A stretch of DNA of 64,000 nucleotides. Origin: Halarchaeum nitratireducens (GTDB lineage: Archaea; Halobacteriota; Halobacteria; Halobacteriales; Halobacteriaceae). Position 1 is the stretch's first letter. Each line of letters begins with the position of its first letter. The stretch lies in NCBI RefSeq assembly GCF_014647155.1, contig NZ_BMOQ01000003.1, forward strand, positions 124,001 through 188,000, written 5' to 3'. Positions 30,951 to 36,893 of the stretch are shown here, one piece after another. Below the pieces are notes generated by a model, which saw only the letters and a list, made by a program, of their open reading frames with translations, was not told the DNA's origin and searched no databases. Both the position numbers and the translations under genes were made by a program.

Positions 30951-31379
30951 ATGGCCTCCATCAGACGTGTCGTCGCCGCCCTCTTCCAGCCCGCGCGCGC
31001 CGGTCAGTTCCTCGCCGTCGGCGCGCTCGGCGCGCTCCTCGATAACGCTGCGCTCGTCGTCCTCCACGACGTCCTCGCGTTCGCGCTGCTCTCCGCGAAA
31101 CTCGTCGCCGCGGAAACCAGCATCATCCTGATGTTCGCCGTGAACGAGCGCTGGACGTTCGACTCGTGGGGCGCGCGTGGCGTCCGCGCGCTCGCGAGGC
31201 GACTCCTCACGTCTAACGCCGTCCGCGCCGTCGGCCTCGCCACCGGCATCGCCGTCCTCTTCGCGCTCACCCGCGCCGGCGTCTGGTACCTCGCCGCGAA
31301 CGTCGTCGGCCTCGGCGTCGGCTTCGTCGTGAACTACTGCTTCGAGAACGTGCTCACGTGGCGCGTCCTCGCCAGTTAG
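30951..31379 (+). CDS. GtrA family membrane protein
   Basis: This 142-residue protein has four membrane helices and the family pattern GQFLAVGALGALLDNAALVV, MFAVNERWTFDSWG, and a C-terminal VGFVVNYCFENVLTWRVLAS. GtrA-like proteins are thought to help move polyprenyl-linked sugars across the membrane. The ATG at 30951 follows a 102-base interval shared with the divergent DUF2298 gene, which would suit joint control of surface glycan genes. The stop overlaps the convergent gene's stop by four bases. Confidence 0.9.
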   Translation: MASIRRVVAALFQPARAGQFLAVGALGALLDNAALVVLHDVLAFALLSAKLVAAETSIILMFAVNERWTFDSWGARGVRALARRLLTSNAVRAVGLATGIAVLFALTRAGVWYLAANVVGLGVGFVVNYCFENVLTWRVLAS

Positions 31380-31777
31380 TTGAGGCGGAAGGACTCCTCG
31401 CCGTCGCTCTCCAGGTCGTCGAGGTGGATGACGTCCTCGACGTCCTCCGCGTCGTCGAGTTCGTCGCGGAGGGCGTTGATGTACGCCTTGTGCTCCTCCA
31501 ACTGCTCGCGGAGGTGCTCGGCCTCGAGCTCGAGGCGCTCGTGCTCGCGGACGAAGCTCTTCGGCACCTCGACCGTCGGCGGGAACTCCCCGTCGACGTC
31601 CTCGCCGACGTCGTCCGTCGGGACGACTTCGACGCGCCCGTCGTTGGCGACGAGCGCGTCGACGTAGTCCCGGAACACCGCGGACAACGAGAGATCGCGC
31701 TCCTCGGCGATGTCGCGGAGCGCGTCGAAGGTGTCCTCGTTCACGCGGAACGAGACGGTCTTGTTCTTGTTGCCCAT
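31376..31777 (-). CDS. Ribbon-helix-helix plus coiled-coil protein
   Basis: This 133-residue protein has an N-terminal segment MGNKNKTVSFRVNEDTFDAL with DIAEERDLSLSAVFRDYVDA. It fits a CopG-like ribbon-helix-helix DNA-binding fold: a basic beta-strand followed by two helices. Residues 75-110 form a charged coiled coil (SFVREHERLELEAEHLREQL). It is probably a dimeric DNA-binding protein. The target is unknown, and no operator can be proposed from the sequence. Confidence 0.75.
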   Translation of the reverse strand: MGNKNKTVSFRVNEDTFDALRDIAEERDLSLSAVFRDYVDALVANDGRVEVVPTDDVGEDVDGEFPPTVEVPKSFVREHERLELEAEHLREQLEEHKAYINALRDELDDAEDVEDVIHLDDLESDGEESFRLN

Positions 31778-31824
31778 ACCCCTAGGTAGCCCCGAACGGG
31801 CCTTAGTTCTTCGTCAGACGATCC

Positions 31825-32451
31825 TCAGACGGACTCGGCGACGCCCTCGTCGCGCGCGTCCGCGCTCCCGTCGTCGCCGTCGGCCTCGTCGAGCGATTCG
31901 AGGGCGTCGATGGCGGCCTGCGTGTAGCGCCGGAGCGGGAGGTCGTACTCCTCCTCGGCGCGCCGAGCGTACTCGTTGCCCTCCTCGTCGAAGGCCTCGA
32001 TGCGCTCTACGGTACGCGCGGCCGTTTCGACGACCCAGCGGTCGCGCGTCGCGGTATCGACTTCGGTGATGGACTCGGGGCGGACGGAGACGTTGACCGT
32101 GCCGTCTTCGGTCTCGTAGGCGCGGGGCTTCCCGACGATGGCGACGTACGCGGGCGTGTCGAGTTCGCGCAGAGCGTTCGCGGCGTCCGGCTGGTACTGG
32201 CCGGCGTAGACGAAGAACGTCCCGGTGGGATCGACGACGCGACCGCGCCAGTACTCGGAGTCCTCGCCGACGTCCTCCGTCTCGGTGAGCGTGCCGACGA
32301 GGAAGACGCGGTTCGCCTTCGCACCCGTGGGGAGGAGGCTGTAGAGCGGCGCGCGCTCGTCGTCGGATTCCTTGAACGTGAACGTGGCGTCGTTGAACTC
32401 GTCGGCGAAGACGCGGCGGGCGACTTCGCGCGTGGGGGCGGATTCGGACAT
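31825..32451 (-). CDS. RPA-associated protein (Rpap, COG3390 type)
   Basis: This 208-residue protein has a single OB-fold-like domain (KANRVFLVGTLTETEDVGED, WRGRVVDPTGTFFVYAGQYQ, TPAYVAIVGKPRAYETEDGT) and a helical acidic C-terminus. It matches the haloarchaeal proteins encoded beside RPA and shown to associate with it in single-strand DNA binding and repair. Its ATG comes one base after the RPA stop, so the pair forms a tight operon. The N-terminus reads MSESAPTREVARRVFADEFN. Confidence 0.9.
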   Translation of the reverse strand: MSESAPTREVARRVFADEFNDATFTFKESDDERAPLYSLLPTGAKANRVFLVGTLTETEDVGEDSEYWRGRVVDPTGTFFVYAGQYQPDAANALRELDTPAYVAIVGKPRAYETEDGTVNVSVRPESITEVDTATRDRWVVETAARTVERIEAFDEEGNEYARRAEEEYDLPLRRYTQAAIDALESLDEADGDDGSADARDEGVAESV

Positions 32452-32452
32452 C

Positions 32453-33382
32453 TTACATCGACCTCGCTTTGATCAGCACCGATTCACCGTCGACCGGGTC
32501 GTTCAGCTCATCGATGTCGTTGGCGAGGACGTAGCGCCCGAGCGTCGGGCCGCTCACGCGGTAGTACTTCCCGAGCAGCGTCTCGCGCATCTCGTCGGCG
32601 ACGACGGTCGTGTCGAGCGCGTCCATCGCCTGTTGTTTCGCCTCTTCGAGCGTGACGCCGGTGAGCTCCGTGGTCGCCTCCTCGTTCAGGATGATCTCGT
32701 GGACCTCCGTCCCGTCGTCGAGGACGCCCTTGATGCGGAGGTCGAACTCGCCCTCGACCTCGCCGTGTTCCGAACAGCGGCCGTTCTGGAGGACGCGCGT
32801 GCAGTCCTCCTCGGGGCAGCGCTTGATGAGGCCGCTCCCGGACTGGATGTCCACGAGCGCGCCCTCGACGGTCGTCTCGTCGTCGCCGACCTCGATGTCC
32901 TCGTCCACTTCGGTGATCGTCGTGGTGCGGTTGAGCTTCACCGAGTAGCGGCCCTGATACTCGTCCGTGACGACGTTCCCGAGGTGGTAGACCTTGCCCT
33001 CGTCGAGCTCGTCGAGATCCGAGGCAGCCCACTTCGTGAACTTGATCGTGCCGGACTCGTCGCCGAGCAGGCCGACCTGCGCGACGCTGTCGCTCCGGGG
33101 GTCCCAGAGGTCGACGACCTTCGCGGTGATGTCGACCCACTCGTCGGGCGCGTCGACGTCCGCGGCCTGTACGGTCGGGTTGCCGCCGCGACCGAGCTCG
33201 TCGCGTTCGATCCCAGCCTCGTCGAGGTAGTGACTCTCGACGGAACGCCGTGCCTCGTCGAGCGGGATCTTGTACTCGTCGACGTAGCGTTCGAGGCGCT
33301 CCTTGATCTCTTTGACATCGACGTCGAGGTGCTCCGAGAACTGATCGTGTAGCTGCTCTGCGGTCTGCTGTATGTCGCTCAT
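32453..33382 (-). CDS. Replication protein A, single-strand DNA-binding (Rpa3-like)
   Basis: This 309-residue RPA has OB folds (WVDITAKVVDLWDPRSDSVA, GTIKFTKWAASDLDELDEGK, YQGRYSVKLNRTTTITEVDE) and a zinc finger in CPEEDCTRVLQNGRCSEHGE near residue 188. It coats single-stranded DNA in replication and repair. The size and the adjacent Rpap gene match the Rpa3 type in Haloferax, but the paralogue number is an inference. It is divergent from a small Cys-rich protein gene across a 166-base interval. Confidence 0.9.
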   Translation of the reverse strand: MSDIQQTAEQLHDQFSEHLDVDVKEIKERLERYVDEYKIPLDEARRSVESHYLDEAGIERDELGRGGNPTVQAADVDAPDEWVDITAKVVDLWDPRSDSVAQVGLLGDESGTIKFTKWAASDLDELDEGKVYHLGNVVTDEYQGRYSVKLNRTTTITEVDEDIEVGDDETTVEGALVDIQSGSGLIKRCPEEDCTRVLQNGRCSEHGEVEGEFDLRIKGVLDDGTEVHEIILNEEATTELTGVTLEEAKQQAMDALDTTVVADEMRETLLGKYYRVSGPTLGRYVLANDIDELNDPVDGESVLIKARSM

Positions 33383-33816: not shown

Positions 33817-34602
33817 TCACTCTAACAGCACGCCGCCGTCGACCGGCAGCGAGACGCCGTTGACGTAGCTCGCGCGATCGCTCGTGAGGAACGCGATCAC
33901 GTCGCCGAGCTCGCGGGGGTCGCCGACCCGTTCTTGGGGGATCCCCGACCCCCACGCTTCGATCCCCTCTTCGTAGTCCGCGTAGTCGCCGCGCTCGACG
34001 CCCTCTTCGACGAGCGAGCCGATCCGCGGCGTCTCGAACGTCCCGGGGAGGACGGCGTTCGCGCGCACGTCCGGCGCGAGCTCCACCGCGAGCGTCTCGA
34101 CGAGCCCGATGACGCCGCGTCGAACGGCGTTCGAGAGGACGAGTCCCTCGATCGGCCGCTCGACCGTGGTGGACGTGATCGCCGTCACGGTGCCGGCGTC
34201 GCTCGCGGCGAGGTGCGGATGCGCGGCGTTCACGGCGCGGACGACGCTCATCACGAGCAGGTCGTAGGCGTCGTACCAGTCGCTCTCGCCGGTGTCGAGG
34301 AACGGTCTGGACGGCGGTCCACCGGCCGAACAGACGAGGTGATCGAGGCCGTCGAAGGACCCGACGGTCGCGTCGACGAGCGCCTCGATGTCGTCGGGGT
34401 CCGTGATGTCGGCGCTGACGCCCTCGACGTCGCCGACCGCCTCCTCGCGGACGTCCGCGATTGCCGATTCGAGTCGATCCTCGTCGCGCCCGCAGAGTAC
34501 GACGTTCGCACCGTCCGCCGCCAGCGCGGTCGCGGACGCCTTGCCGAGGCCGCTCGTGCTCGCGGTCACGAGCGCCGTCTCGCCGTCGTGATCGAATCCC
34601 AT
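33817..34602 (-). CDS. Short-chain dehydrogenase/reductase lacking the YxxxK pair
   Basis: This 261-residue Rossmann protein has the dinucleotide-binding motif ALVTASTSGLGKASATALA, the N-(S)AG equivalent HLVCSAGGPP, and the C-terminal YVNGVSLPVDGG. Where YxxxK is expected, the sequence reads VLSNAVRRGVIG, so Tyr and Lys appear replaced by Ser and Arg. It belongs to a divergent SDR group seen in haloarchaea and bacilli. Either it uses other residues or it is not a classical oxidoreductase. The ATG (MGFDHDGETAL) was preferred to an ATG nine codons upstream. Confidence 0.85.
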   Translation of the reverse strand: MGFDHDGETALVTASTSGLGKASATALAADGANVVLCGRDEDRLESAIADVREEAVGDVEGVSADITDPDDIEALVDATVGSFDGLDHLVCSAGGPPSRPFLDTGESDWYDAYDLLVMSVVRAVNAAHPHLAASDAGTVTAITSTTVERPIEGLVLSNAVRRGVIGLVETLAVELAPDVRANAVLPGTFETPRIGSLVEEGVERGDYADYEEGIEAWGSGIPQERVGDPRELGDVIAFLTSDRASYVNGVSLPVDGGVLLE

Positions 34603-34787
34603 GTCCGTCCGATCGGCGTCCCGACACAAAAACGGTTCTCACGAGTCTCGACGGCCCGTTTCTCCGAAACGTTTGACTCCGTGTGGGCCGTCACCGATCC
34701 CGTGAGCGTTACGTCAGGGGGCTATTCGTGGGCGCGCTCGGGAGCGACCGCCCCGACTCGCCCCGACCGGCGAACGCGGGGGCGAGC

Positions 34788-36893
34788 GTGACCGTCGGCT
34801 TCGAGGCGACCGACCGCGGACTCCGGATCGACGATCGCATCGAGTCCGTGACGTACGAGATCGGTCTCGACGCCGACTCGATCGAGCCCGCGGAGACGGA
34901 GCCGTTCCGCGTCCCGTTGACCCGCGCCGTCGACGTCACGACGAGCGAGCTCGTCTTCCCGACCCTCCCCGAGGTCTTCGCGTATCGCGGCGACGAGGTC
35001 GCGTTCGACGTGACGCCCGGCGGGCGCGCCGAGGCGGACGCCGGGACGTACGAGCTCGACGTCTCCGCCGTCCGCCTCAAACTGTACGTCCGCGTCGTGG
35101 ACTCCCCGGTCACCGTCGACGCCCGCGGCGACGAGACGGTCGTCGACTTCGGCGCGCCGACGCCCGTCCGCATCGGCGTCCGCTCGCTCCACGAGCACCC
35201 CGCGGGGACGGTGACGATCGACGACACGCCCCGCTCTCTGATGCGCGCCGTCTCGACGTTCGGCTCCGCGCTGAAGACGACGAGCCCCGAGCGGTCCTTC
35301 CCGACGATGCGGGGTCACCCACCCACGATCGAACGCGGCGAGCGCTTCGAGGCCCCCGACCACCTCGAACCGCCCGAGACCGACGTCCGGATCGAAGTCC
35401 CGGCGCGCTACGACGCCGTCTACGCCGTCTCGTCGCTCGCCTACTATCTCGGCGCGACGGTCGTCCCGGGCTCGACGCCGCGACTCGTCGCGGGCGATCG
35501 GGCGTTCGACTTCCCGTACGACGACCTCTCGCGCTCCGCGAACGCCGTCCTGCGCCACTGCTTCGTGCTCGACTGCGTCGTCCGGACCGAGGGGATTTAC
35601 CCCATCGACCTCGCGGAGCGCGCGACCGTCCTCGATCGGGTCGACCTCGATCCCGCCACGCTATACGACCGCCCGCTCGCGGACCGGACCGCCGCGTACC
35701 TCGACGTCCCCCTCGACGTCACCGAGGACGTCTTCGCGTGGCACCTCACGGTCGACGTCGAACCGTCGGTCGAGCGCGCCCCGCTTCTCTCCTACCTCGT
35801 CAACGACCTCCCGTTCGTCCGCTCGCCAGTCCCCGACGCCGCCGCGGCCGACACGCCCGACCCGACGGCCGTCTCCGAGTTCTTCCGCTCCGCCGACACC
35901 GACGCGTTCGTCCGTTCGACGCGCGCCGATGACGTGGGGGGCGACGAGACGGCCGATCGACCGGCGGACGCGGGCGGTCGCGTCGTTTCGCCCGTCGACG
36001 CCGAGACCGTCGGGCACGCGTGGGTCGGCGACGACTACCCCCGCGGCGCCTCGAAACCCACGATCGAGTCGTACCGTCGCCAGCTCGACCGGCGAGTCGA
36101 GGAGGACACCGTCATCGACGTCACCGTCGTCTGCAACGATCCCGAGATGCGCGAGGAAGCCGCCGACCTCTACGGCTTCCGGGACATGATCGACTTCGAC
36201 ATCGAGACGTGCTTCGACCTCTCCGTCGCCGAGACGCGGGTGGCCCTCGAAACGGACACCGACTTCCTCCACTTCATCGGCCACATCACCGAGGACGGGA
36301 TCCGCTGCCGCGACGGCGTCCTCGACGCCCGCGGCCTCGACGCCGTCGGCGCCGACGCGTTCATCCTCAACGGGTGTCGCTCGTACGCCCAGGGGATGGC
36401 GCTCGTCGAGGCCGGCGCGCTCGGCGGCGTCGTCACCCTCGCGGATGTCTACGACCACGTGGCGACGACGGTCGGTCGGTCCGTCGCCCGCCTCCTCGAC
36501 GCCGGGTTCGACCTCTACGGTGCGCTCCACGTCGCCACCGAGAGCGTCGCCGCCGACTCACACTACACCATCGTCGGAAACGGCGGCGTCACGCTCTGTC
36601 AGTACCCGTTCGGGTGTCCGAAGGTAGCGGTCGTCAACACCGATGAGATTGGGTCTGAGACGCTTACTATCTCGATTCGTGACTATATTACTCGGGATCT
36701 TGGACCTGGTGTATTTACCACACCATTCCTCCCGGACTCCTCCGCTCGTCACCTTTCTAGTCCTGCCGACCACTACTTCGAAATTCCTCATGAACAGTTC
36801 GACGAGATCCTCTCTTCTGGCCGATCCCCTATGTTGGTCGATGGTAAACTTCGGTGGAGTGATGAGATTGACGTATCAGCTCTTCGTGATTGA
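34788..36893 (+). CDS. CHAT-like caspase-fold protein
   Basis: This protein of about 701 residues has a beta-rich N-terminal half (MTVGFEATDRGLRIDDRIES; FGSALKTTSPERSFPTMRGH) and a C-terminal domain with a CHAT/caspase-like dyad. The candidate His is near 499 in DFLHFIGHITEDG and the Cys near 530 in AFILNGCRSYAQGMALVE. GGVVTLADVYDHVATTVGRS follows. Similar proteins occur across haloarchaea; whether they are proteases is untested. The start is a GTG where family similarity seems to begin; the frame is open to a GTG at 34683. From about 36640 the gene becomes much less GC-rich, yet the family's ending (MLVDGKLRWS) is kept. Confidence 0.75.
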   Translation: MTVGFEATDRGLRIDDRIESVTYEIGLDADSIEPAETEPFRVPLTRAVDVTTSELVFPTLPEVFAYRGDEVAFDVTPGGRAEADAGTYELDVSAVRLKLYVRVVDSPVTVDARGDETVVDFGAPTPVRIGVRSLHEHPAGTVTIDDTPRSLMRAVSTFGSALKTTSPERSFPTMRGHPPTIERGERFEAPDHLEPPETDVRIEVPARYDAVYAVSSLAYYLGATVVPGSTPRLVAGDRAFDFPYDDLSRSANAVLRHCFVLDCVVRTEGIYPIDLAERATVLDRVDLDPATLYDRPLADRTAAYLDVPLDVTEDVFAWHLTVDVEPSVERAPLLSYLVNDLPFVRSPVPDAAAADTPDPTAVSEFFRSADTDAFVRSTRADDVGGDETADRPADAGGRVVSPVDAETVGHAWVGDDYPRGASKPTIESYRRQLDRRVEEDTVIDVTVVCNDPEMREEAADLYGFRDMIDFDIETCFDLSVAETRVALETDTDFLHFIGHITEDGIRCRDGVLDARGLDAVGADAFILNGCRSYAQGMALVEAGALGGVVTLADVYDHVATTVGRSVARLLDAGFDLYGALHVATESVAADSHYTIVGNGGVTLCQYPFGCPKVAVVNTDEIGSETLTISIRDYITRDLGPGVFTTPFLPDSSARHLSSPADHYFEIPHEQFDEILSSGRSPMLVDGKLRWSDEIDVSALRD

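Follow-up and report, generated by a model that had tools for sequence, protein, structure and literature searches.

A CHAT-type caspase-fold protein family that is core to haloarchaea and is linked to signalling genes at many of its loci

CHAT domains (PF12770) have roles in defence in bacteria, and a TPR or SAVED domain as N-terminal partner is a common association of CHAT, not a defining feature. In SAVED-CHAT (8tl0) and the TPR-CHAT protein Csx29 the domain has a caspase fold in which a His and a Cys follow successive core strands. Csx29 is an example of a CHAT protein acting in defence (PMC10028731). Metacaspases and orthocaspases also have a caspase fold with a Cys/His pair, and an earlier survey of 114 archaeal genomes detected metacaspases in just 5 (PMC3501461). 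The caspase-like activity of haloarchaea is strong and tied to stress, and the responsible gene has been missing for more than a decade; in Haloferax volcanii the dominant activity is a zVAD-inhibited LEVDase/VEIDase for which gene homologues were reported to be lacking (PMC3615174). A census of archaeal two-component systems mentions no CHAT, caspase or protease (PMC5847659). Our literature search, which covered neither subscription journals nor preprints, found no paper that connects the CHAT domain to haloarchaea or to Haloferax volcanii, nor one in which DUF7504 is named.

We analyzed a gene in a window of 64,000 nucleotides from Halarchaeum nitratireducens (contig NZ_BMOQ01000003.1) that had been proposed to encode a CHAT-like caspase-fold protein, possibly belonging to an undescribed haloarchaeal response system. 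Its reading frame is open throughout and extends further 5', as far as a GTG at position 34683. The GTG at 34788 was taken as the start because relatives begin in register with it. The motifs FIGH, LNGC and GGVVTLADV were located where the original prediction had placed them, at residues 496-499 (ending in H499), 527-530 (ending in C530) and 546-554, respectively.

Table 1. Features of the CHAT-type gene and its product, with positions in the window.
Feature	Position	Strand	Basis
CHAT-type caspase-fold protein, 701 aa, GTG start	34788..36893	+	ORF, alignment of relatives, AlphaFold, Foldseek
N-terminal domain, residues 1-345: a beta-rich segment (1-144) and an alpha/beta segment containing the block of strongest conservation in the family	34788..35822	+	alignment, pLDDT 94
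Linker, residues 356-396, predicted disordered	35853..35975	+	pLDDT <50
CHAT/caspase-fold core, residues ~444-600	36117..36587	+	Pfam in relatives, model, Foldseek
His499 codon, predicted catalytic (FIGH)	36282..36284	+	ORF, conservation
Cys530 codon, predicted catalytic (LNGC)	36375..36377	+	ORF, conservation
C-terminal extension past the CHAT core, residues 601-701: made of strands and a single helix, with P681 conserved	36588..36890	+	alignment, model

An AlphaFold (AF2) model of the full protein, built on an alignment of 49 relatives, had a mean pLDDT of 87.1 and a pTM of 0.87. In the model a strand at residues 491-497 leads directly into H499 and a strand at residues 522-528 directly into C530. 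This is the caspase arrangement shared with SAVED-CHAT and Csx29, and the assignment of the two residues to the predicted active site rests on this strand order. Foldseek comparison with the PDB gave SAVED-CHAT 8tl0 (E = 3.4e-7), gingipain (3.8e-6) and separase (7.4e-6), followed by weaker matches to the Csx29 complex 7zoq (E = 4.7e-4) and procaspase-3 (7e-3). The full-length TM-scores were low because the C-terminal domain alone matches. The Pfam CHAT model was matched weakly by 11 of the 49 relatives (best E 1.3e-4), and its threshold was barely passed (24.1 versus 24 bits) by a paralogue from the window's own genome. The window protein itself was below threshold in every library (Pfam, NCBIfam and PADLOC), and a direct sequence search of the family profile against the PDB gave no match. 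The structure prediction and fold comparison, together with the Pfam matches in relatives, thus agree with the proposed CHAT-like caspase fold and did not point to a fold unrelated to caspases.

For separase and gingipain, both clan CD peptidases, the likeness to the window protein was confined to the caspase-like catalytic fold. Foldseek of the full protein and of the N-terminal domain gave no separase match outside that fold, and the helical N-terminus of separases was not found, the N-terminal domain here being beta-rich followed by an alpha/beta part. Membership of the metacaspases was rejected, since the Pfam model Peptidase_C14 was matched by neither the window protein nor any of the 49 relatives. 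Judged by predicted fold and catalytic residues, the window gene product is a putative CHAT-type protease.

The His and Cys predicted to be catalytic were found to be conserved, as the original prediction required, and to an extent beyond chance. Of 49 scorable relatives, 48 carry H499 and 48 carry C530. A wider set of 135 aligned sequences contained two that were incomplete at the pair; both residues were kept in 122 of the remaining 133, and 11 sequences lacked both. Ten of these 11 form one clade with an SH-aLRT support of 100, comprising a copy on contig 7 of the window's own genome (L003/L038, ~104.9-106.9 kb) and L141-L149, while the eleventh (L151) comes from a non-haloarchaeal family and has lost the pair separately. 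The proteins without the pair retain the N-terminal domain, with R132, R175 and D262 kept without exception and R169 kept in all but the non-haloarchaeal protein, which has a K. In these proteins, dN/dS of the C-terminal domain was mostly 0.37-0.41 where it could be estimated, compared to 0.04-0.21 in pairs of active proteins; distant pairs were near saturation and one pair was inestimable. Since dN/dS stays below 1, some purifying selection persists, and selection on the C-terminal domain of these proteins is relaxed yet present.

Over half of the positions that are invariant in the family fall in the N-terminal domain, among them those of its most conserved block (G130, R132, P138, T141, R169, P172, R175, P178, P179, Y220, D262, R266 and G269). 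The model places about ten strands within residues 3-144, in agreement with the beta-rich half that had been described, followed by an alpha/beta region to about residue 345. Residues 1-350 reached a pLDDT of 94.4. Foldseek of this domain against the PDB and BFVD gave nothing below E = 1e-3, and Pfam found no TPR, SAVED or other domain in the window protein, so the claim that the domain is unlike known CHAT partners holds. N-terminal domains of GH31 enzymes gave a weak beta-sandwich match only (E 6e-3, TM ~0.2), accompanied by viral noise, and were discarded. Relative to solved and viral structures, the predicted fold of the N-terminal domain is unmatched.

Of 391 sampled Halobacteria genomes 365 (93%) had a match to the family, often in two copies, and the window's own genome has three. 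Outside Halobacteria, only four of the sampled genomes of the phylum were holders, all from one non-haloarchaeal family. Twenty-five plasmid records carry a copy, most of them with a hypothetical annotation; the names caspase family protein and CHAT domain-containing protein occur once each. Tandem duplicates of the CHAT gene were seen in L045 and L032/L072, relatives of the window's family. Compared to the described CHAT systems, the haloarchaeal family has no SAVED or TPR partner and no visible CRISPR link; it is a near-universal core gene, and the window protein lies under every library threshold.

The genes surrounding the family were surveyed in the loci most similar to the window gene, which are mutually related and phylogenetically non-independent. 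Among the 95 loci whose full context was available, 42 have a DUF7504 gene within 2.5 kb, usually as the next gene upstream and in the same orientation, and 24 have a REC-HalX or related response regulator; at least one of the two was present in 47. The neighbour families DUF7504, HalX and Response_reg were confirmed by Pfam. The density of DUF7504 genes, ~3.2 per Mb, leads to an expectation of ~2% of loci by chance; since the loci share ancestry and their selection was based on similarity to the window gene, the binomial value overstates the significance of the linkage. The linkage was observed across several families, and at least 10 changes of the linkage label are required on the tree. It is compatible with a partnership of the two proteins and is not proof of an interaction. 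A comparison of the DUF7504 profile with KaiC gave a weak match around the DSL motif (best E = 0.15), which is suggestive of a degenerate KaiC-like ATPase/NTPase. The recurrent neighbours fall in the groups of haloarchaeal two-component and KaiC-like signalling (REC-HalX, iKaiC).

The locus of the window gene has neither a DUF7504 nor a HalX neighbour, and its genome has six DUF7504 genes, all of them away from the CHAT genes. The window gene is flanked by a divergent SDR gene (33817-34629) on one side and a TRAM gene on the other, with an rpa3 cluster nearby. The SDR/rpa3/TRAM arrangement is kept within the window's genus and partly in its family. A protein with ribbon-helix-helix and coiled-coil regions is encoded at 31376-33382 (-), beside the rpa3 cluster. 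Within the window's family its gene remains a neighbour of the CHAT gene, and the protein may be a CdrL-like regulator of cell division. Several other neighbours were observed in relatives. The gene immediately preceding CHAT in L055 encodes FtsZ, and three proteins among the scanned neighbours matched Tubulin/FtsZ. In 13 of the 103 loci surveyed, L097 among them, the CHAT gene is followed directly by an opposite-strand gene for a small DUF7503 protein (~40-60 aa). A separate CHAT subgroup (L037, L154-L159) has the conserved order glyA, CHAT, tbsP, the last encoding the transcriptional regulator TbsP.

By its N-terminal domain, distribution and neighbours the family represents a hitherto undescribed, signalling-linked type of CHAT protein that is core to haloarchaea. 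We consider it probable that its members are signal-gated CHAT-clade cysteine endopeptidases that form the output of stress or regulatory signalling. The C-terminal caspase-fold domain would cleave a protein substrate by means of His499 and Cys530, and the N-terminal 350 residues may act as a family-specific sensor or scaffold that keeps the protease inactive until a signal is received. In much of the family this signal could be delivered by the adjacent DUF7504 protein, as a putative degenerate KaiC-like NTPase, and the REC-HalX response regulator. On this view, haloarchaeal signal transduction or a stress response would act through the protease, rather than the protease being a phage-defence effector, and the catalytically dead sister clade, present also in the window's genome, may serve as a regulator or decoy.

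A separate proposal, compatible with the above, attributes the orphan LEVDase/VEIDase activity of Haloferax volcanii to this family; we regard this as tentative and rather unlikely as it stands. The activity is strong and zVAD-inhibited in Haloferax and has no known gene (PMC3615174). Each of five sampled genomes identified as Haloferax has exactly one copy of the family, and His and Cys are intact in the three Haloferax sequences read. The assignment to this genus is based on a plasmid of Haloferax larsenii, to which G113 is 99% identical over 5.7 kb and G211 up to 96% identical; none of the sampled genomes could be identified as Haloferax volcanii. In one Haloferax genome the CHAT gene is preceded by DUF7504 at a distance of 35 bases and followed by a HalX regulator. 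Against the proposal, CHAT proteases are in general not known to cleave after Asp. The activity has also been reported in Pyrococcus and Sulfolobus; our search outside Halobacteria covered sampled genomes of the phylum and found the family in only the four mentioned above. The proteasome or another enzyme may be the source. Since Haloferax genomes have a single intact copy, the family is nevertheless a testable candidate for the orphan activity of Haloferax volcanii.

The gene could alternatively encode a housekeeping protease with a role in the cell cycle or on DNA, separase-like in its logic. This would accord with separase being among the top fold matches, with the rpa3 cluster and ribbon-helix-helix regulator adjoining the CHAT gene in the window's family, and with FtsZ-family proteins being neighbours elsewhere. 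However, the separase likeness is common to all caspase folds, and the rpa3 and FtsZ neighbours are limited to single families or genera whereas DUF7504 recurs across families, which makes a cell-cycle role improbable.

The original prediction pointed to the defence and cell-death roles of CHAT proteases in other prokaryotes. In a defence or abortive-infection role, the CHAT domain would cut a gasdermin-like or other effector upon infection and thereby kill the cell. In favor of such a role, the solved structures nearest to the protein, SAVED-CHAT and Csx29, are CRISPR-linked, and some copies are plasmid-borne. The distribution across the class is unlike that of sporadic defence genes, and no family copy was found in the phage collection and viral contigs scanned. 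No convincing PADLOC match was obtained among the relatives, the sole one (E 0.081) being to the unrelated JetC, and no defence-island context was seen: the survey of neighbours for defence genes that had been proposed gave only isolated matches to HerA, mad8 and capH among 102 neighbour proteins, while the recurrent neighbours, DUF7504 and REC-HalX, were regulatory, alongside housekeeping genes. Defence was therefore dropped as the leading reading; it is highly doubtful, and the window gene is probably not a phage-defence gene. The earlier interpretation thus stands for the fold, the His/Cys pair, the N-terminal domain and a response system in the signalling sense, but not for defence; programmed cell death may be an outcome of such signalling.

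Returning to the signal-gated protease, a farther-reaching version can be outlined, which we put forward as speculative. A lineage-wide caspase-fold pathway would have a KaiC-like DUF7504 sensor and a HalX regulator gating a CHAT protease whose N-terminal fold has not been seen before; a dead paralogue would regulate it in the manner of the inactive caspase relatives of animals, and the orphan caspase activity of archaea would be accounted for by the pathway. In the genetically tractable Haloferax the catalytic residues of this near-universal caspase-fold candidate are intact, which opens the question of the orphan activity to a single knockout. The family would place CHAT proteases outside defence and tie them to archaeal signalling, and the clade of dead paralogues points to a possible regulation by inactive relatives.
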